Assembly: GCA_003157195.1 (NCBI GenBank)
Contig: PMIU01000042.1
Coordinates: 1-11,162 of the forward strand
Direction: 5' to 3'
Source: Candidatus Nomurabacteria bacterium
GTDB taxonomy: Bacteria; Patescibacteriota; Minisyncoccia; Phycocordibacterales; UBA9973
DNA: 11,162 nt
Of this stretch, positions 1-11,162 are shown piece by piece (the stretch's first letter is position 1; each line of letters begins with the position of its first letter). Made by a program: the position numbers and the translations under genes. The notes under the pieces were generated by a model. That model was not told the origin of the DNA. It saw only the letters and a program-made list of their open reading frames with translations, and did not search any database.

Positions 1-51
1 GTAAGATTAATAACAGAAGGACTTCTAACGGGATCCATATCCATATCATAA
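1..51 (+). CDS. Possible 3' end of a plus-strand gene (partial)
   Basis: Frame 1 is open from the window edge to TAA at 49-51 and would encode 16 residues ending GLLTGSISIS. The hairpin at 71-109 lies just after it and would suit the end of a convergent gene. Sixteen codons are too few to identify a family or to rule out chance; the opposite strand also has a short open stretch here. Confidence 0.25.
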   Translation, partial: VRLITEGLLTGSISIS

Positions 52-70
52 AGCTTTTTATAAAAAAAAC

Positions 71-109
71 AAGCACAAAAAATCCCCTTTTAGGGGATTT
101 TTTGTGCTT
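71..109 (-). terminator. Strong intrinsic terminator of the 122-1774 gene
   Basis: A perfect 18-bp stem (71-88 with 92-109, loop TTT at 89-91) contains a CCCCT/AGGGG core. On the minus strand it is followed by eight T residues (69-62). It starts 12 bases after the minus-strand stop codon. On the plus strand the following sequence is only TATT-like, so termination in that direction would rest on the internal T run. An outer 11-bp inverted repeat (50-60 with 113-123) flanks the hairpin and overlaps the stop codon at 122-124. Confidence 0.9.
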
Positions 110-121
110 TATTAAAAAGCT

Positions 122-1774
122 TTAAAGAGGATTTACTGTCACAGAAACCAGAGTTGAAACTGGCCCAATTGATCCATTAACATCCTGAGTCGCAACGCTG
201 TAAAAATAAGTGCCAGAAGAAAGTCCGTAATCTGTATAATTGTACATTATTCCTTGGGCAACATAAGAGACCGCAGTTTTTTGAGCAACCAAAACAGGAG
301 CAGTTGTCGTGGAGGTAACTTGGGATGGATTTATAGAACTACTACGATAAATATTATAAGTCGCGATTTGTGGCATTCCAGAATTTACTGATACTCCTGG
401 CCAAGATAAATAAACAGAGTTGCCGGAAACTACCGATGCCGATAGGCCAGTCACTATATTTGGTATCGTGTTAGTTGGTGTTGGAGGGGTAATCCCATCC
501 ACGATCTTGAAATAATTATCACTCGAATCACACATATCGGTGCCGGACTTGCAGACTTGGATTGTGTATGCGCCTGATGCTATTTCAAAATTTGAGGAAC
601 ACTCATGTCCGGGATAGCAGTTAGGAATTGACCAATCATATGAAGAACCATAGACACCTTTCGCTATGTTGTGAGGAGCAGAAATTGGATACAGTATAGA
701 CGTGCTAGCCATAGGGCAAATATTGCTGGTGCAAGGCGGATAGTATGAAATTAGATTAATATCATAAAGCTGAGCAACGAAACCAGACGTAAGATATAAA
801 TTTTTGTCTTGCCATTGTATTGTCTGCGTTGTTCCTTTTGTCCAAGTTTCCCCGCCGTTTGGTCTAGTTACAGTTATGGAAGAAGAAGTGGAAGTAACAT
901 TCCCAACATTCACACTAATGCTCGTCTGCGCGGTTTTTCCGGTAGTGGTGTTTGTTACAACAAAGGTAGGTGTGTAGTTGCCGGCTTGATAATAACTATG
1001 AGTAAAAGTTGCAGATTGTTGATTGGCATAAGATGTAGACGAATTTAGAGCATAAGCAGTTGGTTGATCTCCCCAATTAACTGCATATGAAAGATTCCCA
1101 CCGCTGACGTCCGAAGCTTTTACGCTCCATGTCCCCTGCTGATTTACATTTAATGTCTGTGGTCCGTCTATACTGGTAATAACTGGAGACTGACTATTTG
1201 TTGGCGGAGTTGTCGAAACCGGGCAAGCGGCAAATTGACAGCTTGGAGATATGCGACCCACATATGTTTGACCATCGGGGCAAAGCTTTGCATCCATTGT
1301 ACAAGCAATCCCTGTCGGTGGAGTTACTGTCGTTCCAAGATCATTATCATCTTGAAAATCTTTCACTGCTCGCGCAGTAATACGTCCGTATGAACCGTCA
1401 ATCTTTCCAAAATAATAACCTTGGTCTTTCAAGAATTGTTGGAGCGCCTTCACATCATTACTTCCTTTTAACCCAATTTTGAAATTGCTTTTAAATAAAG
1501 TATTAAACTGCGACACATCAGAAGAATTATCTTGTGTGGGTTGAATAGTATTAGGACATGCTTGTCCGGTTTCTTTACTAAACAAATCTCCGGTGACGCA
1601 GTCATTGACGACAAGCCACGAGCCGCAAGGTTGGCCTGTAGTAGTGCTATATTTGTTGTTTGTTCCACAACCCGGACCCCCAAGCCAAACATCCGCACCC
1701 GCAGACTTAGCGCCGAAACCCAATAAAATTAAGGATAAAATAAACACAAAAGAAAACAACGTATATTTTTTCAT
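122..1774 (-). CDS. Secreted multidomain cell-wall-binding protein (PG-binding, PKD-like, FN3-like)
   Basis: The open frame runs to 1795 (557 residues), but the ATG at 1774 (MKKYTLF, 550 residues) is the better start: it begins a clean signal peptide (MKKYT, hydrophobic core FVFILSLILLGF, cleavage near SAGA-D), and a promoter -10 box at 1784-1789 excludes the upstream ATG at 1795. Domains in 557-residue numbering: two Cys motifs of the TTGQPC / ETGQACP kind (50-81); a peptidoglycan_binding_1-like helical repeat at 112-150 (NDVKALQQFLKDQGYY, KIDGSYGRITARAVKDFQ); a Kazal-like Cys cluster at 165-192; a PKD-like beta-sandwich at 203-298 (WGDQPTA, FTHSYYQAGNYTP); a Ser/Thr-rich Kre9/KNH-like domain at 306-432 (RPNGGETW, TIQWQD); and a fibronectin III-like domain at 445-555 (LSWPGVS, YNIYRSSS, YFYSVATQD). 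It is probably exported and held on the cell wall. No catalytic domain is seen, so a structural or adhesive role is inferred. Confidence 0.9.
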   Translation of the reverse strand: MKKYTLFSFVFILSLILLGFGAKSAGADVWLGGPGCGTNNKYSTTTGQPCGSWLVVNDCVTGDLFSKETGQACPNTIQPTQDNSSDVSQFNTLFKSNFKIGLKGSNDVKALQQFLKDQGYYFGKIDGSYGRITARAVKDFQDDNDLGTTVTPPTGIACTMDAKLCPDGQTYVGRISPSCQFAACPVSTTPPTNSQSPVITSIDGPQTLNVNQQGTWSVKASDVSGGNLSYAVNWGDQPTAYALNSSTSYANQQSATFTHSYYQAGNYTPTFVVTNTTTGKTAQTSISVNVGNVTSTSSSITVTRPNGGETWTKGTTQTIQWQDKNLYLTSGFVAQLYDINLISYYPPCTSNICPMASTSILYPISAPHNIAKGVYGSSYDWSIPNCYPGHECSSNFEIASGAYTIQVCKSGTDMCDSSDNYFKIVDGITPPTPTNTIPNIVTGLSASVVSGNSVYLSWPGVSVNSGMPQIATYNIYRSSSINPSQVTSTTTAPVLVAQKTAVSYVAQGIMYNYTDYGLSSGTYFYSVATQDVNGSIGPVSTLVSVTVNPL

Positions 1775-1783
1775 ATGTTTCAT

Positions 1784-1811
1784 ATTATACTGCATATTAC
1801 GAATTTAGCAA
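1784..1811 (-). promoter_or_regulatory. Sigma70-type promoter for the secreted PG-binding protein
   Basis: TTGCTA at 1811-1806 and a perfect TATAAT at 1789-1784 are separated by 16 bases. The -10 box ends nine bases before the ATG at 1774, so transcription should begin within a few bases of the start codon, giving a leaderless or nearly leaderless mRNA. Confidence 0.75.
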
Positions 1812-1827
1812 CTCAATAGATAAGTAA

Positions 1828-2859
1828 TTATACCAACTCAATACCTGGAAGATAATTTTTACGACTTAGAAAATACCAAGTCAGTAACATTAAAACAATA
1901 ATTATAATTGTTGGATGTATGGGAGAGAATATTTTTGCCATATCCCATAGGCTAATCCAATTTACAGAAATATAGCCATTGACAGTCTCTATATTGTCAG
2001 TAAATTGAACATCTTGTTTTTTGATATTAGTAAGTTGCGCATTTACGTTATTTATCTGATTATTATAGCTTAGATTACTTGAAGCATAGGCAGAATTTTC
2101 TATATTTATATTTTGCTGTAATGATGCCTCTTGTTGAGATAAATTATACTCCTGATTTCTCAATGTAGCTAACACATTTACATCGGAAGTGGCAGGAATA
2201 GATGCTCGCACGGCGACAAGTTGATTTTTTATGCTGGTTATTTGTGTTTGTAAATCACTTACAATTTGTTTATGTTTTGTAGTTAAATCTTTCTGCTCTT
2301 TTTGCAATTGAGCAAGCGAGTCTGCGGCTGCTGTTTGCTGCTGTTCAATTGATTGTTTCTGTCCCAAAAGATTTTGTGATGAGCTGTTCTCTGTATATAA
2401 TTTCTCATTTGTTAGGCTTTCAATTTCAGATTTGAAATTTTTTAAATTACTCTTGGGGATAACAAAACTGACATACGAATACTTGGTGGATTCATTTAAG
2501 CTGTCTATTCTCCCTTCTGCCTCATTTATGGAATTTTTTACGTCACGCATTGCACTTTTGACGTCGCGAGTTTTTATTGATGCCCCATAAGTTACTTTCA
2601 TAAATTCTCTAGTATCTTTAACTGAAGAAGTTTCATATTGATTTGGATAATATGTAGGAGAAATAGAGGGTGCAGAAGGTGCAGAAATACCACCCTTAGA
2701 TTGTGTCTCATTAACAACACCGATATTATTATACTGATTATTTTTTCTGTTAAACAAACTAAATAACACAAATCCCAATATTAAAATAACAACGAAAATA
2801 ATCATTTTTCGACGAGATATTTTTATAACTTTTTTAGCTCTCAATGGCGTATTTTCCAT
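1828..2859 (-). CDS. DUF4349-like membrane protein with long coiled coil
   Basis: A 343-residue protein. A basic cytoplasmic N-terminus (RAKKVIKISRRK) precedes membrane segment 1 (about 19-36), then a Ser/Pro/Tyr-rich linker (50-80). A DUF4349-like domain follows (about 84-160), with the typical order of an alpha/beta stretch TREFMKVTYGASIKT, a helix ending in EAEGRIDS, and the strand YSYVSFVIPKSNLKNF. A Gln-rich coiled coil (about 160-285) comes next, then an ISVNWISLWD strand and a C-terminal membrane segment (about 316-331) with a short tail. The layout of N-terminal anchor, extracytoplasmic domain plus coiled coil, and C-terminal anchor matches DUF4349 proteins, whose role is not settled. 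No catalytic residues are evident. It has its own promoter and no Shine-Dalgarno sequence, and its stop lies 32 bases before the next gene's frame. Confidence 0.85.
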   Translation of the reverse strand: MENTPLRAKKVIKISRRKMIIFVVILILGFVLFSLFNRKNNQYNNIGVVNETQSKGGISAPSAPSISPTYYPNQYETSSVKDTREFMKVTYGASIKTRDVKSAMRDVKNSINEAEGRIDSLNESTKYSYVSFVIPKSNLKNFKSEIESLTNEKLYTENSSSQNLLGQKQSIEQQQTAAADSLAQLQKEQKDLTTKHKQIVSDLQTQITSIKNQLVAVRASIPATSDVNVLATLRNQEYNLSQQEASLQQNINIENSAYASSNLSYNNQINNVNAQLTNIKKQDVQFTDNIETVNGYISVNWISLWDMAKIFSPIHPTIIIIVLMLLTWYFLSRKNYLPGIELV

Positions 2860-2902
2860 AAAAAATTAATACTATTAATAATAAATTAATACACTGTATT
2901 AT

Positions 2903-2930
2903 ATCATATCTTCCGTATATTTTGTATCAA
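2903..2930 (-). promoter_or_regulatory. Promoter of the DUF4349-like gene
   Basis: TTGATA at 2930-2925, a 16-base spacer, and TATGAT at 2908-2903. An overlapping TATAAT at 2903-2898 would need a 21-base spacer. The likely transcript starts about 30 bases before the ATG at 2859. The promoter sits directly after the terminator of the ribosomal protein operon. Confidence 0.6.
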
Positions 2931-2936
2931 CGAACC

Positions 2937-2965
2937 AAAAAACGGAAGCCTTGCTTCCGTTTTTT
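2937..2965 (-). terminator. Intrinsic terminator of the rplJ-rplL operon
   Basis: A 13-bp stem (2937-2949 with 2953-2965, loop CTT) has a GC-rich ACGGAAGC/GCTTCCGT core bounded by A6 and T6 runs, so the minus-strand transcript ends in a U run. It lies about 105 bases after the rplL stop and just ahead of the next promoter. The A/T symmetry would let it act in both directions. Confidence 0.85.
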
Positions 2966-2998
2966 AGCTAGGTCTTGCCTAGATATTTCTATTTGAGC

Positions 2999-3070
2999 TC
3001 AATTTTGGTCGCTCATTGCTATGAGCGACACCTTCGGCATTCTCATGCCTGCGGCCCGCGGTAAAATTGA
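2999..3070. repeat. Nested multi-hairpin palindromic element after rplL
   Basis: An outer 8-bp stem (2999-3006 TCAATTTT with 3063-3070) encloses three hairpins: a perfect 9-bp stem GTCGCTCAT/ATGAGCGAC with loop TGCT (3008-3029); GGCAT/ATGCC with loop TCTC (3036-3049); and GCG/CGC (3051-3059). The last two are held together by ACC/GGT (3030-3032 with 3060-3062). It is more GC-rich than its surroundings and lies between the rplL stop and the operon terminator. It could be a mobile palindromic repeat or a 3'-UTR RNA structure; the sequence alone does not decide. Confidence 0.6.
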
Positions 3071-3071
3071 A

Positions 3072-3443
3072 TTACTTTAGTTCAATTTTTCCTCCTGCGG
3101 CTTCAATTTTCTTTTTCAGGTCTTCGGCTTCGGCTTTCTTCATCCCCTCTTTCAAGGTCGAAGGAGCAGCGTCAACCAAATCTTTGGCATCTTTCAAGCC
3201 AAGACCAAGAGCTTCTTTGACAACTTTCATCACAGCGATTTTTTGTTCACCGGCAGATGCGAGCACAACTGTAAATGCATCTTTTTCCTCAGCTGCTTCT
3301 GCGCTACCGGCTGCTCCGACCTGGGTCGGAGCGACAGCCGCTGCGGACACTCCGAACTTTTCTTCGATTGCCTTCACCAAATCATTGAGTTCCAAGACTG
3401 ATGCGCTCTCGAGGTCTTTCATAAATGAATCAAATTTTGACAT
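3072..3443 (-). CDS. rplL: Large ribosomal subunit protein bL12 (L7/L12)
   Basis: A 123-residue protein of normal family length. The N-terminal dimerisation helices ([32 protein letters not shown]) bind L10. A hinge rich in Ala/Gly/Glu follows (about 34-54). The C-terminal domain has the hallmark [38 protein letters not shown] and ends in [14 protein letters not shown]; this part recruits translation GTPases to the ribosomal stalk. It starts 28 bases after the rplJ stop and is co-transcribed with it. No Shine-Dalgarno sequence precedes the ATG; the spacer is A/T only apart from one C and one G. Confidence 0.98.
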
Positions 3444-3471
3444 ATAATTTTATTACTATTAATTGTTAATA

Positions 3472-3951
3472 TTATTTTTTCTTCGCCACTTCGTTCACTG
3501 CCAGAGCCAGACGTTGCATCGGGCTCTTGAGCAAGAATGCAATCTTCCCAAGCAATACTTCCCTGCTTGGTATAGTTGCGAGCTCCATCATAAATGCGCT
3601 CCCGACAAATTTCCCGTCAAAAATTCCACCCAGAATATTCAACATTCCTTTGTGGGTTTTTTGGAAATTGTACACTTCGCGCGGAGATGAAATGGCATCC
3701 TTGGAATAAGCGATAGCAACCTCGCCGGCCAATTCCGGAACTTCTCCTTCCGCTTTGCCTTTCAAGGCGCGAGCGAGTAAAGTTTTTCTGGAAACTTTGT
3801 AGTTCACTTCTTTGTCTCGAAGCTCTCTCCTCAATTTCGTTTCGTCGCTCACTTTCAAACCGTGAAAGTTAACAAAGACCAAAGACTCGGAGCCCTTGAT
3901 GGCTTTTTCCAAATCCTTAATCATTTCTTCTTTTTTTGATTTTTGTAACAT
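3472..3951 (-). CDS. rplJ: Large ribosomal subunit protein uL10
   Basis: A 159-residue L10 protein, slightly shorter than the usual 165-175 residues. It begins MLQKSKKEEMIKDLEKAIKGSESLVFVNFHGL, the typical N-terminal helix and strand that bind 23S rRNA, continues with LRRELRDKEVNYKVSRKTLLARAL, and ends in the helix PMQRLALAVNEVAKKK that carries L7/L12 dimers. L10 anchors the stalk and, in many bacteria, binds its own leader RNA. Here a leader with an attenuator (4005-4120) lies upstream, which implies autoregulation of rplJ-rplL. The ATG lacks a Shine-Dalgarno sequence, and a duplicated 10-bp motif lies just ahead of it. Confidence 0.97.
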   Translation of the reverse strand: MLQKSKKEEMIKDLEKAIKGSESLVFVNFHGLKVSDETKLRRELRDKEVNYKVSRKTLLARALKGKAEGEVPELAGEVAIAYSKDAISSPREVYNFQKTHKGMLNILGGIFDGKFVGSAFMMELATIPSREVLLGKIAFLLKSPMQRLALAVNEVAKKK

Positions 3952-3964
3952 TTTGATTAGCTTC

Positions 3965-3988
3965 TAGGTTCTAGTTTTTAGGTTCTAG
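3965..3988. repeat. Two 10-bp direct repeats in the rplJ 5' UTR
   Basis: TAGGTTCTAG occurs at 3965-3974 and again at 3979-3988, separated by four T residues (period 14). It lies between the attenuator and the rplJ start codon, so it is in the mRNA. Its role is unknown; it may be a small expansion. Confidence 0.7.
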
Positions 3989-4004
3989 AAAATAGATATT
4001 AAAT

Positions 4005-4120
4005 AAAAAAAACGGCTTTTAGCCGCAAGTTTTTCTCTTCCTGCGCAAGAACGGTTCTTGCGCAATTCAGATATCGACCCACTAAGTAGGATTTAATTGT
4101 TTACCTACTTTCTCTGCGGT
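4005..4120 (-). ncRNA. Ribosomal protein L10 leader with attenuator
   Basis: The minus-strand transcript starts ACCGCAGAGA, then a 7-bp stem AAGTAGG/CCTACTT (4107-4101 with 4090-4084) closed by ACC/GGT across an asymmetric loop, with the typical TTAAATCC segment. This is the arrangement of the L10 leader family (RF00557), where L10 or the L10-L12 complex binds. A perfect 10-bp hairpin follows (4064-4055 with 4051-4042). Then comes a terminator-like hairpin CGGCT-AAA-AGCCG (4025-4013) with eight U residues (4012-4005). The hexamer CTTGCG occurs both in the second arm of the 10-bp hairpin and at 4029-4024 at the base of the terminator, so the first arm could pair with either. That would allow an attenuation switch (inference). 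Confidence 0.8.
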
Positions 4121-4126
4121 ATGTCT

Positions 4127-4155
4127 AATATACACAAACTATTGCAATTTTGCAA
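4127..4155 (-). promoter_or_regulatory. Promoter of the rplJ-rplL operon
   Basis: TTGCAA at 4155-4150, a 17-base spacer, and TATATT at 4132-4127. The predicted start, about 4120, coincides with the first base of the L10 leader. The -35 box is one half of a doubled TTGCAA motif (4142-4147 and 4150-4155), which might be an operator. The promoter overlaps the last codons of the upstream 30-codon ORF. Confidence 0.75.
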
Positions 4156-4231
4156 GTATAAGAGCAATGATTGTCCCCAAAAGAATCATTATAAGGAATA
4201 TCCCCAGAACCTTGAAAAAATGCTTTGCCAT
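4139..4231 (-). CDS. Small single-pass membrane peptide (30 aa)
   Basis: ATG at 4231-4229, TAG at 4141-4139. The product starts MAKHFFKVLG, has a long unbroken hydrophobic stretch (IFLIMILLGTIIALILA, residues 11-27), and ends KLQ. A basic start, one membrane helix and a short basic tail are what one expects of a real membrane peptide. An extended -10 box lies eight bases before the ATG. It sits between the beta-helix gene and the rplJ leader, with its 3' end overlapping the rplJ promoter. I do not recognise a family; it is too short for SecE and lacks SecE motifs. Confidence 0.6.
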   Translation of the reverse strand: MAKHFFKVLGIFLIMILLGTIIALILAKLQ

Positions 4232-4239
4232 GTGGGTAA

Positions 4240-4248
4240 AGTATAGCA
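4240..4248 (-). promoter_or_regulatory. Extended -10 promoter of the 30-aa membrane peptide
   Basis: TGC-TATACT reads 4248 to 4240 on the minus strand, an extended -10 element. No good -35 hexamer lies 16-18 bases upstream. The box ends eight bases before the ATG at 4231, so the mRNA would be leaderless or nearly so. Confidence 0.5.
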
Positions 4249-4261
4249 CACTCTCCCAAGT

Positions 4262-7072
4262 CTAGTTTGGCAGTGAATCATCTGAAACATTCGAATTGAT
4301 GGTGAAAGTTTGAGAATCGGAAGATAAACCATTCGCAGAAATTGTTATTATGGATATCCCAGGAGTACCGTCTTTATAGCAAAAACTTCTATGGGCACTT
4401 CCAGATGCGATTGGAATTGTCAATGGGGTTTTCCAACCAGTAGTATCACATGTATTATCAGAAGCTGACGCGGTTGTGAACATTCCAGTTTCGGAACTTG
4501 AAAGCAAATTCACATGAATAGTAGATATTGCTTTAGTTGACACTCCTGATGTATTTTGTGATTCTACTGTAATGATACTCGAGGCAGTATCTGCATCAAC
4601 TGTTTGCGGGGAAGTAATTATTTTTAGTTGAGTTATTATACTGTCTACTTGGGGGTTTGGATTCGACGCAACTGCAACCGTCACAATATAATTTTGCGTA
4701 GAGATATCTTCTGCTGTAACTGTGTATGTAACCGGAGTGGAAAAATTCTGAGTTACATTATTATCCGGACTAATTTTTGCTTTGTCGGAAATTGCAATTG
4801 TCGGAATTAAATTTGCAACATTAGTTCCGAAAGGAACAGTTAAAGAAATAGTGTGATTAGTTTCATCAATAGTTCCGGCAACGTTTGGTGTTAAATTCGT
4901 AAAGCTAAACGCAGTGATTGCTTTGGCAGAACTGGGCACAGGGATAGAAGTATTAATCATTTTCACAGTTCCATCTTCGGAATTTCCCGCTCCGCTGTTC
5001 ACACCACTTGCCACTGCTTTTCCAGTAAATGAAGAATTACTATAGTATATAGCCACACGTCCCCCGCCTCCTGGACCATAACAACCGGAGGGACACACAG
5101 GCCCGCCTCCATTTGCCCGAAAAGTCCCAGAACCACCAAGCGTGTTTGCAGTTATATAAATACTGCCACCGCTTGATGTAGTGCTTCCATTAGCAGAAAT
5201 AATGCCATTATTAATAAAGTTGCCTGTAGATATTAGTCTTATGGCACCGCCTCCAGCAGAGTAACTTCCATTTCCACCACTACCGAAATCAACCGGCTGT
5301 GTAACAGAACCGTATGTTGGCTTTGCAGAACCATTACCCAGCCCGCCGTAACTCGCTCCAGCATAGTAAGTACCTGGATTGTTTGGATCATAAATAGCAG
5401 TTGGAGCTCCGGGCCCGGCGCTCTCGCCATAACCTTTTCCATCTGCAGAAATATACGAACCGGAATTAATTGTAATGTTTGGAATATTTAGGGAAAGTAT
5501 TTTTCCCGGAGCAGTGATAATTGTGGAATTTCCATTTAACGTTAGAGAGTTTGTAGTAATCGTTTCATTTCCGGAAAGTGTCATTGTCGAACCCCCATCT
5601 AGCGTAATGGTTGGTATGTTTAATATTTGATTATCAGCTAGCGCAAAAGATGAGTTTTTGTTAAACGAGAGATTGTTGGCAGTTATACTCACCCCGTTTT
5701 CTGAAGTTATTTGCGCGCCATTTGAAACAAAAATATTATTGAATGAAAAGGGCGCATCTGCCTGTAAAAACTTCCATGAACCATTCAAATATAAATCGTT
5801 TGAAGTTTCATCGAAAATTCCAACAGTGCCATTCTGCCCGCAAGACATAGTCATGCCATCGTATTGACCACATCCACCTTTGGCTTCCGCTGTACCATTG
5901 AACGATGATGTTTTGTAATAAATAGCAATACGTCCTCCGCCTCCGGGACTTTTAGTATAACCATTATCATAAAGAGCTCCACCATTTGCATTAAATTTTC
6001 CACTTCCTGTCATAGTATTAGTTGAAATATAAATACTGCCACCACTACTTGAGGGATAACCGTTCGAGGTAATAGTGCCGTTGTTGGTAAAAGTATCAGA
6101 GACCATAATACGAATAGCTCCGCCACCTGCACGGTTGCCACTATAATTAACACCACCGCTTCCTAAATCGGTCGGTTTAGTGGCTGAGCCATAAGTTTTT
6201 GAATACGAAGCACTGCTATAGCTAAGCCCACCGTAGCTTGCGCCAGTATAATTATCTGATGAAGCTCCGGGACCTTTGTCTGCGCCAAACCCTGTTCCAT
6301 TCGCAGAGATAGATGCGCCGAGATCGATAGTAATATTGACCGCAGTAATTTTTACACCTTTGAAGGAGTTAAGAGATGCAGAGTCTCCCTCCAAAGTTAA
6401 AACTGCGTTGTTGGTAATTATTAAATTATCATAATTATATTCACCGGCAGGCAAAGTGGTGTCTTTATCAATGGTAAAAGTAGTGAGTACCGGAAGAGCA
6501 GGAGGTGGAGGAATAACTGGCGGAATTTCTTTTACCACTGGCGGAACAATTGGGTCTGGTGTTGGAGAAGCAGCTACTCCACCAGTACCCAGCAAAAGAG
6601 TCGCTGATGGATTTTGTGTAGCATCAGAATTTTCAGTATTTTCTTCTGTGTTAGTCTCGGGCGGAAGTGTCGGCTCCGTTGTTATCGCCCCCGGCGCATT
6701 TTCATCGTCGGCTAAATCCACGGCAGTGGCTTGATTCCCCTCTTGAGGGGTGGCGCTTGCGCCGGGGTGGATAATTTTTCCACCTCCCCCTGAAGGGTAC
6801 TCCTCAAGAGGAGAATCATTCGTGGAATCCGACAACCCAGCAAGACCAGTTGCCAAACTGCTTCCGTCCGGCAAACTACTTGATACGTTAGCCAATAATC
6901 CACCAACCATATTCCCAAAAGCCAGACTAGTATTATGTATAAAGTTTCCTATTGCTAACCCGACATTACTTACACCGTCTCTGACATAAACACCTGCATT
7001 GTAAGTGGCAACAACTCCCCCTTTAACCACAATTGCCGTCGGATCTGCCACAGCTAAAGCTAGCCCTTGCAC
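4262..7072 (-). CDS. Glycine-rich beta-helix / Ig-like surface protein, probably the 3' part of an interrupted lipase-like gene
   Basis: A 936-residue ORF from a GTG codon, but the same frame is open to 7264, where a TAA (7267-7265) separates it from the hydrolase ORF. There is no ATG in the extra 64 codons, no ribosome binding site before the GTG, and no signal peptide, so the GTG is probably not a real start. The 64 codons finish the hydrolase fold (GHDFSKIYL supplies a likely catalytic His). Regions (936 numbering): mixed hydrophobic segment 1-85; in-frame palindrome-derived stretch 86-113; acidic/Pro-rich linker 115-195; two glycine-rich repeats, 260-400 and 546-690, sharing GPGA, GASYGGL, FGSGG or LGSGG, AGGGAIR, SSGGSIYI and GPGGGGR-like motifs and resembling a beta-helix; a DUF5018-like Ig domain 716-801 (ITAFSF, TVPFGT, VTYTVTAED); and a last Ig-like domain about 815-928 with two Cys. 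Probably cell-surface exposed. Confidence 0.75.
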   Translation of the reverse strand: MQGLALAVADPTAIVVKGGVVATYNAGVYVRDGVSNVGLAIGNFIHNTSLAFGNMVGGLLANVSSSLPDGSSLATGLAGLSDSTNDSPLEEYPSGGGGKIIHPGASATPQEGNQATAVDLADDENAPGAITTEPTLPPETNTEENTENSDATQNPSATLLLGTGGVAASPTPDPIVPPVVKEIPPVIPPPPALPVLTTFTIDKDTTLPAGEYNYDNLIITNNAVLTLEGDSASLNSFKGVKITAVNITIDLGASISANGTGFGADKGPGASSDNYTGASYGGLSYSSASYSKTYGSATKPTDLGSGGVNYSGNRAGGGAIRIMVSDTFTNNGTITSNGYPSSSGGSIYISTNTMTGSGKFNANGGALYDNGYTKSPGGGGRIAIYYKTSSFNGTAEAKGGCGQYDGMTMSCGQNGTVGIFDETSNDLYLNGSWKFLQADAPFSFNNIFVSNGAQITSENGVSITANNLSFNKNSSFALADNQILNIPTITLDGGSTMTLSGNETITTNSLTLNGNSTIITAPGKILSLNIPNITINSGSYISADGKGYGESAGPGAPTAIYDPNNPGTYYAGASYGGLGNGSAKPTYGSVTQPVDFGSGGNGSYSAGGGAIRLISTGNFINNGIISANGSTTSSGGSIYITANTLGGSGTFRANGGGPVCPSGCYGPGGGGRVAIYYSNSSFTGKAVASGVNSGAGNSEDGTVKMINTSIPVPSSAKAITAFSFTNLTPNVAGTIDETNHTISLTVPFGTNVANLIPTIAISDKAKISPDNNVTQNFSTPVTYTVTAEDISTQNYIVTVAVASNPNPQVDSIITQLKIITSPQTVDADTASSIITVESQNTSGVSTKAISTIHVNLLSSSETGMFTTASASDNTCDTTGWKTPLTIPIASGSAHRSFCYKDGTPGISIITISANGLSSDSQTFTINSNVSDDSLPN
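6733..6817. repeat. 85-bp palindromic insert in frame within the surface-protein gene
   Basis: The ends form a 16-bp inverted repeat with one mismatch (6733-6748 GATTCCCCTCTTGAGG with 6802-6817). Nested inside are further dyads: CCCCTC/GAGGGG, GGCGC/GCGCC and GGTGGA/TCCACC. Read on the minus strand it encodes 28 residues (DSPLEEYPSGG... HPGASATPQEGN) in the flexible linker, without breaking the frame. The base pattern is of a REP/MITE-like repeat and not of ordinary coding sequence. Confidence 0.7.
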
Positions 7073-7264
7073 TTTATGGAGTAAGGTCAGTTTCGGCGGA
7101 GAAATACAAGGGTCGCTTGAAATTTGTTCGTCATTTTCTTTTAAATTATTAAGTGCTGACTTAATATCAGCAATAATTTTATCGCCTTGATATTTTAAAT
7201 ATATTTTTGAAAAATCGTGTCCGTTTTTATCGTCACTATTTTGAAAAGCAATATGCGTATTGGG

Positions 7265-7267
7265 TTA
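7265..7267 (-). other. In-frame TAA splitting one gene into two ORFs
   Basis: This TAA ends the 189-codon hydrolase ORF. The next 1000 codons are open in the same frame and continue the hydrolase homology (PNTHIAFQNSDDKNGHDF). A point nonsense mutation, a sequencing error or readthrough could explain it. Confidence 0.8.
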
Positions 7268-7834
7268 TAAAATATTTCTTTTAAAAGTACCGCCAACTAA
7301 GCTCGCATTAATACCATCTGTGTCGGAAGTTAAATATTTTCCATCACCCGCGACCCTGCTGGCCGGAGTGGCCACACCATATACACCGATAGATTTGCTC
7401 GGCACTCCGCCCTCCTGCGAGGCGACTTTGTCGTAAAAGTTGTTGGCATAAAAATTGCCCTGCGAATGGGCGACAAGTAAAACCTTTTGTGTGGTGACTT
7501 TCTGGCTAGCGTCATTCAACATTTCCACCAGGTCATAATCGGACTTCTGGTCAAAAAACCCTTGTGCTACGACTTCAAATAAATCGCCCATGCCGGCCAG
7601 GTGGGTGGGGTTAAAAAAATATTGATAATCTAATTTTTGATTTTTATATGTATCTTTTAATAATACTTTCAATAACCTTTCGTTATTTCGAGCCCCCTCT
7701 TCATCAGTGAAAATACCATTAACGGTAGAAATAGTATAGCCATTCTTAGAACATAATTCACTCGCTAAAACATTTCTAGCACAAAATGAACAAAACAAAA
7801 CCAGAACAAGAATAAACAATATTCTTTTTTTCAT
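7265..7834 (-). CDS. Secreted alpha/beta-hydrolase (lipase-like), truncated N-terminal part
   Basis: A 189-residue ORF with a signal peptide (MKKR, core ILFILVLVLFCSF, cleavage near VLASE). The fold follows: first strand and loop STVNGIF (37-42), a helix with NNERLLKVLL, and the nucleophile elbow VLLVAHSQGN (118-127), where Ser124 in AHSQG is the expected nucleophile. Then come YGVATPASRVAGDGKYLTSDTDG (152-174), which should hold the acid residue. The frame stops at NIL-TAA, before the region that would carry the catalytic His. That region (GHDFSKIYL) is present immediately after the stop in the same frame. As written, the product would be an incomplete hydrolase. The gene starts 18 bases after the EF-hand-type membrane protein gene and is presumably co-transcribed with it. 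The substrate is unknown; lipid esters are the usual family substrates. Confidence 0.8.
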   Translation of the reverse strand: MKKRILFILVLVLFCSFCARNVLASELCSKNGYTISTVNGIFTDEEGARNNERLLKVLLKDTYKNQKLDYQYFFNPTHLAGMGDLFEVVAQGFFDQKSDYDLVEMLNDASQKVTTQKVLLVAHSQGNFYANNFYDKVASQEGGVPSKSIGVYGVATPASRVAGDGKYLTSDTDGINASLVGGTFKRNIL

Positions 7835-7852
7835 ATAAAAATTTATGAAATC

Positions 7853-8476
7853 TTAATTTTGTAATTTTACAATATCAACATCACAACTCTCAGAATCATC
7901 TATTTTCCCACCCTTAACAAAAGAGTAAAAATTTTTATGTTTAGCTTTTCTTTGTTCAGTATTAAGTTGCTTATCGGATATAAATTTTCCATATTTTTCT
8001 AATGCTAATATTACTCCTCCCCCATCGGGAACAATTTTTGATAAGCAGAAAACTGCCCTATCTCCTTTACTTGCTATTTCTCCAGCAATAGCTTCATTCA
8101 TAAAAGGTTGCACCGTCTCCATCTGTAAAGCCAGCGCATACTGCAAAAGCACAGCTCGGGTTTTCGCCGAATTGGGATACTGTTTAAAGACAGCTAGCTC
8201 TACGTCGTCGCGGATGCCGTTTTGGTTTGCATCCACACCCGCCACAGTTTTATCTGCCAAGGTACCCGGGTCCGGCGGAGGGTTTGTGCCCAATACATCG
8301 TCCATCGTGAGCTTGGTATTATGAATCTTCTCCACTTGCGCATTTGTCTTATCTAAATTAAAAAAGTGAACCACGCGGACGATAACTAAAATAGCATATA
8401 AAATAAACAAAACTAAAAAGGCCCAACAAAATATTCTAAAAATTCTGTGAGCCCATAACTTTTTTATTGTTTCCAT
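7853..8476 (-). CDS. Membrane-anchored protein with an EF-hand-type calcium loop
   Basis: A 207-residue protein. A basic N-terminus (METIKKLWAHRIFR) leads into one membrane helix (about 15-37, IFCWAFLVLFILYAILVIV), so the rest is likely outside the cytoplasm. Residues 82-93 (DANQNGIRDDVE) form a complete 12-residue EF-hand/dockerin-like loop: D, N, N, G, D and E at positions 1, 3, 5, 6, 9 and 12. The remainder is mostly helical with no motif that I recognise. It is first in a two-gene unit with the secreted hydrolase, so a calcium-related or accessory role for that enzyme is possible (inference). The start is supported by a promoter whose -10 box lies six bases upstream. Confidence 0.85.
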   Translation of the reverse strand: METIKKLWAHRIFRIFCWAFLVLFILYAILVIVRVVHFFNLDKTNAQVEKIHNTKLTMDDVLGTNPPPDPGTLADKTVAGVDANQNGIRDDVELAVFKQYPNSAKTRAVLLQYALALQMETVQPFMNEAIAGEIASKGDRAVFCLSKIVPDGGGVILALEKYGKFISDKQLNTEQRKAKHKNFYSFVKGGKIDDSESCDVDIVKLQN

Positions 8477-8482
8477 CTTTTT

Positions 8483-8510
8483 ATTATATAATCTATAAAA
8501 AATATTTCAA
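8483..8510 (-). promoter_or_regulatory. Promoter of the EF-hand protein / hydrolase operon
   Basis: TTGAAA at 8510-8505, a 16-base spacer, and a perfect TATAAT at 8488-8483. Only six bases separate the -10 box from the ATG at 8476, so the mRNA should start at or very near the start codon. A consensus DnaA-box sequence (8518-8526) lies eight bases upstream of the -35. Confidence 0.8.
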
Positions 8511-8547
8511 AAGCACCTGTGGATAACTTTCATAATTTCTTCATACT

Positions 8548-8570
8548 ATTCGGGTGTTAAACACCCGAAT
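8548..8570. repeat. REP-like palindrome, copy 1 (just after the transposase stop)
   Basis: ATTCGGGTGTT at 8548-8558 and its exact complement at 8560-8570 around one central base. It lies two bases after the transposase stop codon. It shares its core (TTCGGGTGT/ACACCCGAA) with the palindromes at 9033-9053 and 9245-9265. Confidence 0.85.
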
Positions 8571-8572
8571 TT

Positions 8573-9232
8573 TTATGGAAGTATGTCGTCTTCTAATAAG
8601 GAGGTTAGCCCCCGCTCGTCACGAATCATCGACACAACACTCATGCATTCTTTTTTAAAATTTTCATTGCCACCATAAAAATCCAAAAGCCCTTCCGCTT
8701 CTTTTTTTGCGACAAGGGTAAAATTATTATTATCATATTCTTTTTCACTGGATAAAACCAAATGCATTTTTTCTTTTGGAATATCGTGTACTAAATTATT
8801 TAAATGTACATACGGCCGAATTTTTAAAAAATAAGCATCATCGTCTATTAAATTTGATTTGAAACTACCTTGAAATAAAGATCCGGTTCTTTTATGAATT
8901 AAATTAAAATAATTTGTATATCCACCCAAAAGACGCTTAAAAAATTCTGAGATTCCGCCGTCTACTTCTTGTTTCACAATAAAATGAAAATGATTCGGAT
9001 TTAAACAAAAACAAACAATAGAAACAAGGGCTTTCGGGTGTTTAACACCCGAATCGCTAGGTTTTCCAAGCATCAAATCCTTAATACTACGTATAGGCTT
9101 GACCACGTTAAATTCTTTTACGCTTAAAGCAAATCTATCTAAGTCTGCCTTACTCATAAAAATATCTCTTTTATCAACTCCCCTGTTGTAGATGTGATAA
9201 TATTGACCGGTTATAAGTGGATCTTTTCTCAT
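8573..9232 (-). CDS. REP-associated tyrosine transposase (RAYT, Y1_Tnp / TnpA_REP family)
   Basis: A 219-residue HUH-type single-strand transposase. The N-terminus has the typical YYHIYNRGVDKRDIF (11-25). NPNHFHFIVKQ (78-88) holds the metal-binding HUH pair His81 and His83. The segment YTNYFNLIHKRTGSLFQGSFKS (105-126) carries the catalytic Tyr (Tyr105 or Tyr108). IRPYVHLNNLVHD (138-150) matches the usual IRYIHLNPVRA region. In known systems these enzymes cut and join REP palindromes as single-stranded DNA. Here one palindrome lies 12 bases before the start, one lies 2 bases after the stop, and one is inside the gene, encoding residues 60-67 (DSGVKHPK) in the loop before the HUH motif. All key residues are present, so the protein may be active. 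Confidence 0.9.
   Translation of the reverse strand: MRKDPLITGQYYHIYNRGVDKRDIFMSKADLDRFALSVKEFNVVKPIRSIKDLMLGKPSDSGVKHPKALVSIVCFCLNPNHFHFIVKQEVDGGISEFFKRLLGGYTNYFNLIHKRTGSLFQGSFKSNLIDDDAYFLKIRPYVHLNNLVHDIPKEKMHLVLSSEKEYDNNNFTLVAKKEAEGLLDFYGGNENFKKECMSVVSMIRDERGLTSLLEDDILP
9033..9053. repeat. REP-like palindrome, copy 2 (inside the transposase gene)
   Basis: TTCGGGTGTT (9033-9042) and AACACCCGAA (9044-9053) around one base. On the minus strand it is read in frame as part of DSGVKHPK, between KDLMLGKPS and the strand leading to the HUH motif. Compared with copy 1 the centre is T instead of A, and the arms agree over 10 bases. Confidence 0.85.
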
Positions 9233-9244
9233 ACAAATTGTTTG

Positions 9245-9265
9245 TTCGGGTGTTGGACACCCGAA
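9245..9265. repeat. REP-like palindrome, copy 3 (just before the transposase start)
   Basis: TTCGGGTGT (9245-9253) and ACACCCGAA (9257-9265) around TGG. It differs from the other two copies only at the centre. It is 12 bases from the transposase ATG and would be in its 5' UTR. Confidence 0.85.
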
Positions 9266-9271
9266 AATGTA

Positions 9272-10183
9272 TTAAAAATGATAACTTTTATCATTAACTC
9301 TGACTGATTTGCTATCGAAAGTCCATTCCAATTTAAATTCTTTTTCATCTTCAACCTTGGATTGGAAAATTTTCTTAAATTTTTCTCTTCTATCAAAAAT
9401 TGAAAGTTCTAAATTTTTATCATTTGAACTTTTCATAACTAAAGCCAACTTATTGCTGTCTAGAGACCAAACAGCTAATGGTGTATCTACCATATCGCTT
9501 TCCGGAGAAATAGGATGATATCTTAATATTATATTGCCAAATTTGTCGCCGACAGTTATTCCTGTGCGGTAAGAATAATTGTAGGCAAAAACCCACTTTT
9601 TATCCGGTGACCAAGTGTAACCGACTCCGTATTGTAATTGATATTTTTTGCCGGTTTTTAGATCAATCAAAAATTCTACTTCACATTCCGTACCACAACC
9701 TTCGTAGACTAAAATTTCACTATTTGAAAACCATTCCCAGCCACCAGTTCTAAAGGTGCCGTGAAAAACTTCTTTTGGTTTTCTAGTTTTCACATCTTCA
9801 ATATATAAAACAGTCGTTCTATCGTAAGGAATACTTTTATCATAAATATCATAATCTACAAAATAACCAAATTTATCCTCTCCTGGAGAAAAGAGAAGCT
9901 CAATAATGGGATTATTTTTATACTTAACTTCTCTTTTAAATTGACCGTCAATAAAATACACCCAGAGATATTCTCCACTAATTAACTTTGACGGTGCAAC
10001 TTTACTAATTTCAATTGACTCACCTGTTTTAAGCAAAGGAGTGACTGGTAAATTTTGTGTTATATTATCAGGTAAGATTTTGATTATGTTCTTGTTTCCC
10101 TGCTTCGATGCAATAAAATTCAAAATCAAAATAGAACAAAGAATAACGCTTAAAATTAAAATATTTTTGAATAATATTTTCAT
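9272..10183 (-). CDS. Membrane-anchored beta-propeller (TolB/WD40-like repeat) protein
   Basis: A 303-residue protein with an N-terminal signal anchor (residues 5-24, FKNILILSVILCSILILNF). The VILC sequence is not a good lipobox. After a linker come repeated PD40/TolB-like blades with the F/W-S-P/x-D or similar signature: LLFSPGEDKFGYFVD, WEWFSNSEILVYEG, YTWSPDKKWVFAYN, AVWSLDSNKLALVM and LEWTFDSKSVRV. This suggests an extracytoplasmic beta-propeller of five or six blades. It probably binds a ligand or protein; no enzymatic residues are evident. The ATG overlaps the stop of the upstream SleB-like gene by four bases (ATGA), so the two should be translationally coupled and may act together at the cell wall. 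Confidence 0.8.
   Translation of the reverse strand: MKILFKNILILSVILCSILILNFIASKQGNKNIIKILPDNITQNLPVTPLLKTGESIEISKVAPSKLISGEYLWVYFIDGQFKREVKYKNNPIIELLFSPGEDKFGYFVDYDIYDKSIPYDRTTVLYIEDVKTRKPKEVFHGTFRTGGWEWFSNSEILVYEGCGTECEVEFLIDLKTGKKYQLQYGVGYTWSPDKKWVFAYNYSYRTGITVGDKFGNIILRYHPISPESDMVDTPLAVWSLDSNKLALVMKSSNDKNLELSIFDRREKFKKIFQSKVEDEKEFKLEWTFDSKSVRVNDKSYHF
9277..9295 (-). terminator. Weak terminator-like hairpin at the end of the propeller gene
   Basis: AATGATAA (9277-9284) pairs with TTATCATT (9288-9295), loop CTT. On the minus strand a short T run ending in the TAA stop follows. The stem is all A/T but for two pairs, so it would be a weak terminator overlapping the last codons. Confidence 0.35.
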
Positions 10184-11162
10184 AACTTACAAAAAGTGAA
10201 GTGATCAATTTTCTTTATAGTATTTTCTTTTGTAGCCCATTTTGGAGTGCTAATACTATCATCAAAATAATGATTAGCCCCAGAAACTGGATCGGGAATT
10301 TCTCCTGAAATGATTTGCCCAGCAACATTATATGTTTCTTTCCATTTATTATGATCCGCCGGATTTTTTGTTGTACCCAATGGGTCCTTAAGAGCTCTTA
10401 AATTAAAATCTTTTCCTGGTAATTCCCAGAATGCGGAATATTGATATGGTTCTAAAATTATTTTATGATAATTATCTCTAAGAAAAACTTTTTTATTTAT
10501 AGTGCCCAAAGTTCCTAACCTATTTTTAATACACCAAGCCACAGCAGTGCGAGCCAATTCGGAAGTTCCTCGCGCTTCTCCCCAAATGGCTCGTGTTAAA
10601 ATCATCTGCTCAGTGTCGTCATTAAAATCCCCCGTCCATTTTGGATTGTCTACTGTTGGTATTTCTCCGAGATTTTTTCTATTAATTTCTATTTCAATTT
10701 TATTCAAGGCTGGACTGCCATCAGCATACAGCTCAACATAGTGCACGCCTTTTTCCAGTTTCAAATCATGATCAAAATCTTTTTCTTCCCCTTTTAAAAT
10801 TTTTCCGCACCAATACCAATTTTTGTGTGATTTTTCTGTATCATTTTCCTGAATTTTTCCGTCAATAATTAACTTTGCGTCTTCATCGTCTTTATTATCA
10901 TTTATAATTTCGTCCTCATCGTCATTCAAAGGATCGGTAAAAATTGCCCCATCCTTTTTTAAATATCGGATTACATGGATGGTGCGCAAAGCATTCAATA
11001 ATTTTATCCCCCAATATTTTTCAAAATTAGTAAGGCATTCAATGAGAGAATCGTTTATACTTTCAAACGTTGCCAGTGAATACCAATGAACAAAATCATA
11101 AAAATCCTGGTAAATATCTGTCAAATCTTCGGATAAGCTCGCTTGAAAAATGTTTTGACTCC
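10180..11162 (-). CDS. SleB-like cell-wall hydrolase, 5'-truncated by the window edge
   Basis: The frame is open to 11162, and the first possible start, a TTG at 11124 (314 codons), has no supporting signal, so the true start lies outside. Residues below count from that TTG. The N-terminal part (1-60) is helical and unrecognised. An acidic stretch (65-83, DDEDEIINDNKDDEDAK) follows, then a beta-rich segment (100-148, KNWYWCGKIL ... GVHYVELYADGSPAL) of the kind seen in accessory binding domains. The C-terminal domain (171-314) matches Hydrolase_2/SleB: TRAIWGEARG with catalytic Glu183, ARTAVAWCIKNRL, YQYSAFWE (227-234), VAGQIISGEIPDPVSGANHYF (267-287) and a final HFTF (308-311). This family cleaves peptidoglycan glycan strands. 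It ends in TGA, overlapping the next gene's ATG. Confidence 0.85.
   Translation of the reverse strand, partial: SQNIFQASLSEDLTDIYQDFYDFVHWYSLATFESINDSLIECLTNFEKYWGIKLLNALRTIHVIRYLKKDGAIFTDPLNDDEDEIINDNKDDEDAKLIIDGKIQENDTEKSHKNWYWCGKILKGEEKDFDHDLKLEKGVHYVELYADGSPALNKIEIEINRKNLGEIPTVDNPKWTGDFNDDTEQMILTRAIWGEARGTSELARTAVAWCIKNRLGTLGTINKKVFLRDNYHKIILEPYQYSAFWELPGKDFNLRALKDPLGTTKNPADHNKWKETYNVAGQIISGEIPDPVSGANHYFDDSISTPKWATKENTIKKIDHFTFCKL

Follow-up and report, generated by a model that had tools for sequence, protein, structure and literature searches.

Background

Some lipases are paired with a membrane-anchored foldase (Lif), and in these pairs the gene order is reversed relative to that described below. 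Minimal alpha/beta-hydrolases of the Bacillus subtilis lipase A type (bacterial lipase family I.4) and cutinases are comparable to the enzyme described here at the level of the fold. To our knowledge, the surface enzymes of reduced, presumably host-dependent bacteria such as the Candidatus Nomurabacteria are poorly known. The DNA analysed here, called the window, is a stretch of 11,162 nucleotides (nt) from a Candidatus Nomurabacteria bacterium (assembly GCA_003157195.1, contig PMIU01000042.1, positions 1 to 11,162). Its minus strand contains the gene for a hydrolase with a long, repeat-rich C-terminal part, which is interrupted by one in-frame TAA, and, directly upstream, a conserved gene for a partner protein. 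With a probability of about 0.88, what the window contains is a single Nomurabacteria-type (Paceibacteria) gene in one damaged copy, and the TAA arose either as an error or through a private nonsense mutation of very recent date; these two halves of the explanation are rated about equal.

One gene interrupted by one stop codon

An open reading frame (ORF) of 189 aa with an ATG start is followed, in the same phase, by a frame that remains open for 1000 codons before its own stop (Table 1). When positions 7834 to 4262 are translated as a single frame, 1191 codons including the terminal stop are obtained, and the TAA at codon 190 is all that parts the two pieces. An earlier, sequence-only reading of the window had described this arrangement, and the ORF list and the translation bear out both the shared frame and the coordinates. 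It had also remarked that no ATG is present near the 5' end of the downstream frame. Indeed, the first in-frame ATG is codon 119 (position 6910), and the one earlier alternative is a GTG at 7072, where the listed ORF of 936 aa (4262-7072) begins; ribosome binding sites of this frame were judged by eye. A frame of 1000 codons that is open in phase with the preceding ORF is far beyond chance, and homology settles, at the level of sequence, that the two pieces are one gene.

This homology is closest in P0057, a database protein of 1190 aa with no internal stop, which aligns with the window gene over its whole length (first Met to last residue) and differs at three positions: 176, 190 (the stop), and 358. 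The comparison was made at the protein level, where synonymous differences are invisible. P0057, the representative of four member sequences in a protein database clustered at 90%, was retrieved with the first 500 residues of the downstream frame as the query; the search scored only the 7999 candidates sharing most words and gave 590 matches, the best 120 of which were listed. When the 189-aa piece was used as the query (55 matches), the best match was 67% identical over 96% of the query, and the highest identity was 75% over 40%; no near-identical short protein was present among these matches, although a truncated copy could hide within the P0057 cluster.

Relatives also carry the hydrolase and the C-terminal part together. 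Within the genus, the hydrolase is present in 21 of 80 genomes, and in 17 of these it lies in one frame with a long C-terminal part (838-1324 codons open). The other genus hydrolases include one that runs off a contig end and three that are interrupted, namely those of the window genome (G000), G057, and G010. In a sample of 397 genomes of the order, 53 have a hydrolase match, giving 56 rows. Stops inside the hydrolase domain occur in three rows: the TAA of G000, a TAG in G057, and a TAG in the remote G109. The last two are at places other than that of the window stop, after the His in G057 and soon after the Ser in G109. Together, the uninterrupted P0057 and the fused relatives uphold the proposal that one gene encodes the hydrolase and, fused to it, a C-terminal part rich in repeats. 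In addition, a near-identical uninterrupted copy and the continuity of most relatives across the junction fit the earlier view that the stop is either very recent or an error.

Homologues that consist of the 189-residue form alone had been named as the finding that would speak against a single gene. Among those examined, which took in part of the short rows among the 56, none has a natural end ahead of the His: those that are short are contig ends, frameshifts, the two nonsense copies (G057, G109), and one apparently natural form of 460 aa (G416), which retains the whole hydrolase domain. Short database proteins, as read in 25 of the 55 matches, look like a mix of contig ends and frameshifts, and none alone shows a natural 189-residue form.

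Other interruptions are found in the family. At locus L031 (G057), this hydrolase gene is independently interrupted by one in-frame TAG, which closely follows the codon of the catalytic His. At loci L032 (G010) and L162 (G472), the reading frame shifts within the linker that follows the hydrolase domain, and coding continues in another frame.

Table 1. Features of the interrupted hydrolase gene and its partner gene, in window positions
Feature	Positions	Strand	Evidence or remark
5' piece of the split gene: signal peptide and first three quarters of the alpha/beta-hydrolase, 189 aa	7265..7834	-	homologues ≤71% identical
Probable signal peptide, residues 1-24, hydrophobic core, ...VLA	7763..7834	-	boundary by eye, inferred
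Nucleophile Ser124 in AHSQG	7463..7465	-	33/33 homologous loci
Probable catalytic Asp173	7316..7318	-	33/33 homologous loci
Aberrant codon 176: Asn; Ile in P0057 and 33/33 homologous loci; 14 codons before the stop	7307..7309	-	alignment
In-frame TAA, codon 190 of the gene	7265..7267	-	translation against P0057
Probable catalytic His206, after the stop	7217..7219	-	58/59 rows of alignment A2, other row a gap; invariant in 31 rows of A4
3' piece: hydrolase remainder, linker, two Gly-rich repeats, DUF5018-like region, C-terminus; 1000 codons	4262..7264	-	no evident start near 5' end
Region holding Gly-rich repeat 1, probable beta-solenoid (fold inferred)	5765..6484	-	93/189 aligned residues identical to repeat 2
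Region holding Gly-rich repeat 2	4955..5542	-	repeat comparison
DUF5018-like region, PF16410	4667..4939	-	53.5 bits, cut-off 38.2
Conserved upstream partner gene, 207 aa	7853..8476	-	18 nt upstream of the hydrolase gene

The hydrolase domain and what the stop removes

In the intact form of the gene, the nucleophile elbow and a Ser-Asp-His triad are present in order, and the structure model of a close relative has the alpha/beta-hydrolase fold. The sequence-only reading had located the Ser elbow (AHSQGN) before the stop and a likely catalytic His, in GHDFSKIYL, after it. Both placements hold: GHDFSKIYL starts at the 15th codon after the stop, and its His is conserved in every aligned row except the one with a gap. 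In the 189-aa product as written, the triad and the core are incomplete, and the stop precedes both His206 and helix 204-225 of the model. What the stop takes away from this lipase/cutinase-like fold is the predicted catalytic His together with the last helix of the core. Translation of the gene as written would end before these two elements, leaving a 189-aa fragment that would be inactive and probably unstable. In the downstream frame, which begins within the hydrolase domain, neither a start nor an export signal is evident close to the 5' end. If undamaged, the gene would encode a secreted protein of ~1190 aa, composed of a signal peptide, a minimal lipase/cutinase-like hydrolase, a linker, two Gly-rich repeats, and a DUF5018-like end. 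We infer its secretion, a lipid or ester substrate, and a role at the cell surface with the partner encoded upstream.

The top structural match by Z is TesA of M. tuberculosis (Z 13.3, root-mean-square deviation 3.1, 153 aligned), and thus the substrate class is not readable from the fold; lipase A is a match in fold only, at 15-16% identity. A Pfam scan of 31 members of the hydrolase family gave no convincing match (one member at E 0.002, to an unrelated enzyme), and a sequence search of the PDB gave no convincing relative (2 chains, best E 0.21). PADLOC models (E ≤ 0.01) matched neither the hydrolase (window piece and L061) nor the partner nor the downstream frame, an absence from the library that does not exclude a role in defence.

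Error, recent mutation, and other explanations of the stop

An assembly or base-call error, or a chimeric strain consensus, around positions 7265-7309 has close to an even chance of being the source of the TAA. Two aberrant codons, 176 and 190, lie within 14 codons of each other, and just one residue (358) differs from P0057 in the remaining 1175. The position of codon 176 beside the stop suggests either a local sequence error or very recent decay. In addition, the window genome is assembled in 111 contigs with 5.82% contamination (91% complete). However, the codon changes could be real. The residue at position 190 is variable among relatives, and so no particular residue is needed there.

Rated somewhat below an even chance is a real nonsense allele in the population, with the enzyme off or lost in the strain and the 189-aa remnant present as the product of a pseudogene. 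The nonsense allele of G057, in the same domain, looks reproducible, since database protein P0006, which is found on 6 contigs, has the same truncated end as the G057 product; the change of an invariant residue at codon 176 likewise fits decay. Yet P0057 is near-identical and uninterrupted, and the 1000 downstream codons are otherwise open. Moreover, in-frame stops are present in 3 of 55 rows of the partner gene (not inspected base by base), compared with 3 of 56 for the hydrolase, and consequently nonsense is not in excess. A nonsense hotspot in the hydrolase family, which was also considered, is unsupported by the same counts.

Several observations weigh against a single gene damaged by error or private mutation. 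The four-member P0057 cluster could include truncated forms, and P0057 itself, which the search output marks in the manner of proteins encoded by the window, may derive from the same sample or genome as the window. Although two of the three differences fall within 14 codons, the chance that three random codons of 1190 would include a pair this close is about 0.07, which makes the pairing no more than suggestive. The G057 stop, with P0006 on 6 contigs, indicates that real nonsense alleles seem to occur in the family, and the interrupted relatives G057, G109, G010, and G472 argue against a purely private accident, although some of these may themselves be sequence errors. Finally, template-modelling scores of the hydrolase model in Foldseek are modest, at 0.29-0.41 by query length (12 chains, E ≤ 0.001).

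The sequence-only reading had also allowed for expression by readthrough of the TAA, which would produce a full-length surface protein in addition to a hydrolase stub. The frame that is open for 1000 codons past the stop is compatible with this idea, but the uninterrupted P0057 explains the open frame by itself, and the stub would be without the catalytic His. No other row of the 56 has a stop at the window position, and TAA, which ends seven of the eight other listed window ORFs, is an ordinary stop here. A suppressor transfer RNA (tRNA) is likewise not apparent: Rfam gives 33 tRNA matches in the genome, and ARAGORN found no UUA anticodon at 30 + 3 tRNA loci (one uncalled), a result that is strong, though not absolute, given a genome that is 91% complete. 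Nothing in the literature searched paired 'stop codon readthrough' with 'Candidate Phyla Radiation'. Because the stop is not conserved in relatives, TAA is ordinary, and no suppressor tRNA was found, readthrough or recoding was rejected as highly improbable.

A split into two genes, one for a short hydrolase and one for a repeat protein of its own, was rejected as being just as improbable, because the downstream frame starts inside the hydrolase domain, carries the His and the last helix, and has its first in-frame ATG 119 codons in, even though the 460-aa relative in G416 is a hydrolase without the long repeats and the same repeats occur with a different, C-terminal LCAT-type domain.

A conserved partner gene upstream of the hydrolase

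The single damaged hydrolase gene is preceded by a gene whose product carries a hydrophobic helix at its N-terminus, which by eye is a membrane helix, and also contains a conserved stretch rich in Asp and Asn (D-x-N-x-N-x-x-R-D-D-V-E) and two Cys that are invariant over 20 rows. The partner matches 21 of the 80 genus genomes, and 20 of these are among the 21 with the hydrolase. The exceptions are G019, whose partner match is partial, and G021, in which the hydrolase without a partner sits near a contig end. In the order, the partner is found in 52 of the 397 genomes: 47 have both genes, six have the hydrolase only, and five have the partner only, all five being weak, partial matches. The partner is upstream and on the same strand in 49 of the 56 hydrolase rows, at a distance of ≤115 nt in 45 of them; the other seven comprise three that begin at contig ends and four distant homologues with lengths of 421-443 aa. 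At the 18 loci inspected the genes downstream of the hydrolase differ, and we therefore propose no third conserved gene.

Partner and hydrolase distances are correlated (r 0.44, 19 loci; none of 2000 permutations as high), but shared descent would by itself produce such a value, and we do not count it as proof. A profile of the partner matched 2088 database proteins at E ≤ 1e-5 among the 8000 candidates scored; the legible names among the best 120 of these are all hypothetical or uncharacterised. The structure model of the partner, which is all-helical, is too weak for interpretation or a fold search (predicted local distance difference test score, pLDDT, 64.6). In Pfam the partner has just a sub-threshold match to DUF3995, and among 20 members two unrelated NCBIfam families were hit, one member each, at E 0.004-0.005. 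No convincing relative was found in the PDB by sequence (1 chain, E 0.17). Thus, in the libraries searched, neither the hydrolase nor the partner has a convincing family match, and no description of the protein or the pair is apparent in the literature searched, as far as the opening parts of abstracts go. From the gene pairing and the topology, the partner may act as a chaperone, anchor, or inhibitor.

At locus L035 (G008), the partner and the hydrolase are fused in frame as one 1000-codon frame, with loss of the partner end and the enzyme signal peptide. This fusion may be an assembly error; G008 is counted among the 17 long-frame genomes.

C-terminal modules and neighbouring elements

The C-terminal part of the window gene has two Gly-rich repeats of ~190 aa, which are 49% identical to each other, and a DUF5018-like region. 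The beta-helix label previously attached to this part is plausible. Among nine relatives scanned with Pfam, three have DUF5018 and surface immunoglobulin (Ig)-like domains, one of which also has seven LVIVD repeat stretches; two have a PF13229 beta-helix and a lamin-tail, two have a lamin-tail without the beta-helix, and two are without a Pfam match. Of the four lamin-tail matches, only one reaches the cut-off set by Pfam itself. On this sequence comparison, the N-terminal enzyme is constant among relatives and the C-terminal modules vary.

Proteins P0121 and P0109 contain the same Gly-rich repeats with an LCAT-type hydrolase towards the C-terminal end and without the N-terminal hydrolase; the Gly-rich repeats are thus paired with different enzymes. 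The contig of P0197, a partner homologue, is equal in size to that of P0121 (220,684).

A Y1-type transposase ORF (PF01797) is present at 8573-9232. Copies of a 21-base palindrome flank it (8549-8569 and 9245-9265), and a third copy lies inside its coding sequence (9033-9053); no further copies with ≤1 mismatch are present in the assembled genome. Neither this transposase ORF nor the partner nor the downstream frame had a match in PHROGs.

Significance and comparison with known systems

The stop itself is ordinary and matters little: it is a warning that one aberrant codon in a metagenome assembly can turn a 1190-aa protein into an apparent truncated hydrolase and an apparent giant ORF without a start. 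Attention is due instead to the hydrolase-partner cassette around it. We tentatively propose that this cassette may be an undescribed two-gene system of Paceibacteria, in which a membrane-anchored helical partner would fold, anchor, or restrain a secreted, lipase-like enzyme. The conserved catalytic domain of this enzyme would be joined to display modules that can be swapped (Gly-rich solenoid, LVIVD propeller, lamin-tail, Ig), and host or neighbour cell surfaces may be its target; loss alleles would then be a strain-level switch-off. If true, a lipase with a dedicated helper would offer a testable handle on how such cells act on surrounding membranes.

Among the closest counterparts are P0058-P0060 and other homologues in Nomurabacteria/Paceibacterota, labelled, where they have a name, hypothetical, immunoglobulin-like, or DUF5011/DUF5018 domain-containing, which have the N-terminal hydrolase, the linker, the repeats, and often Ig-like modules in one ORF. 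Unlike the window gene they are uninterrupted, and their C-terminal modules vary (LVIVD, lamin-tail, PF13229 beta-helix, Ig). The Lif pairs are similar in that a secreted, lipase-like enzyme is found beside a helical protein with an N-terminal hydrophobic helix, but the window partner is without a lipase-chaperone match in Pfam. The hydrolase resembles lipase A-type minimal alpha/beta-hydrolases and cutinases at the level of the fold; however, members of the window family are just 13-16% identical to the lipase A and cutinase rows, and they carry long, fused C-terminal modules.

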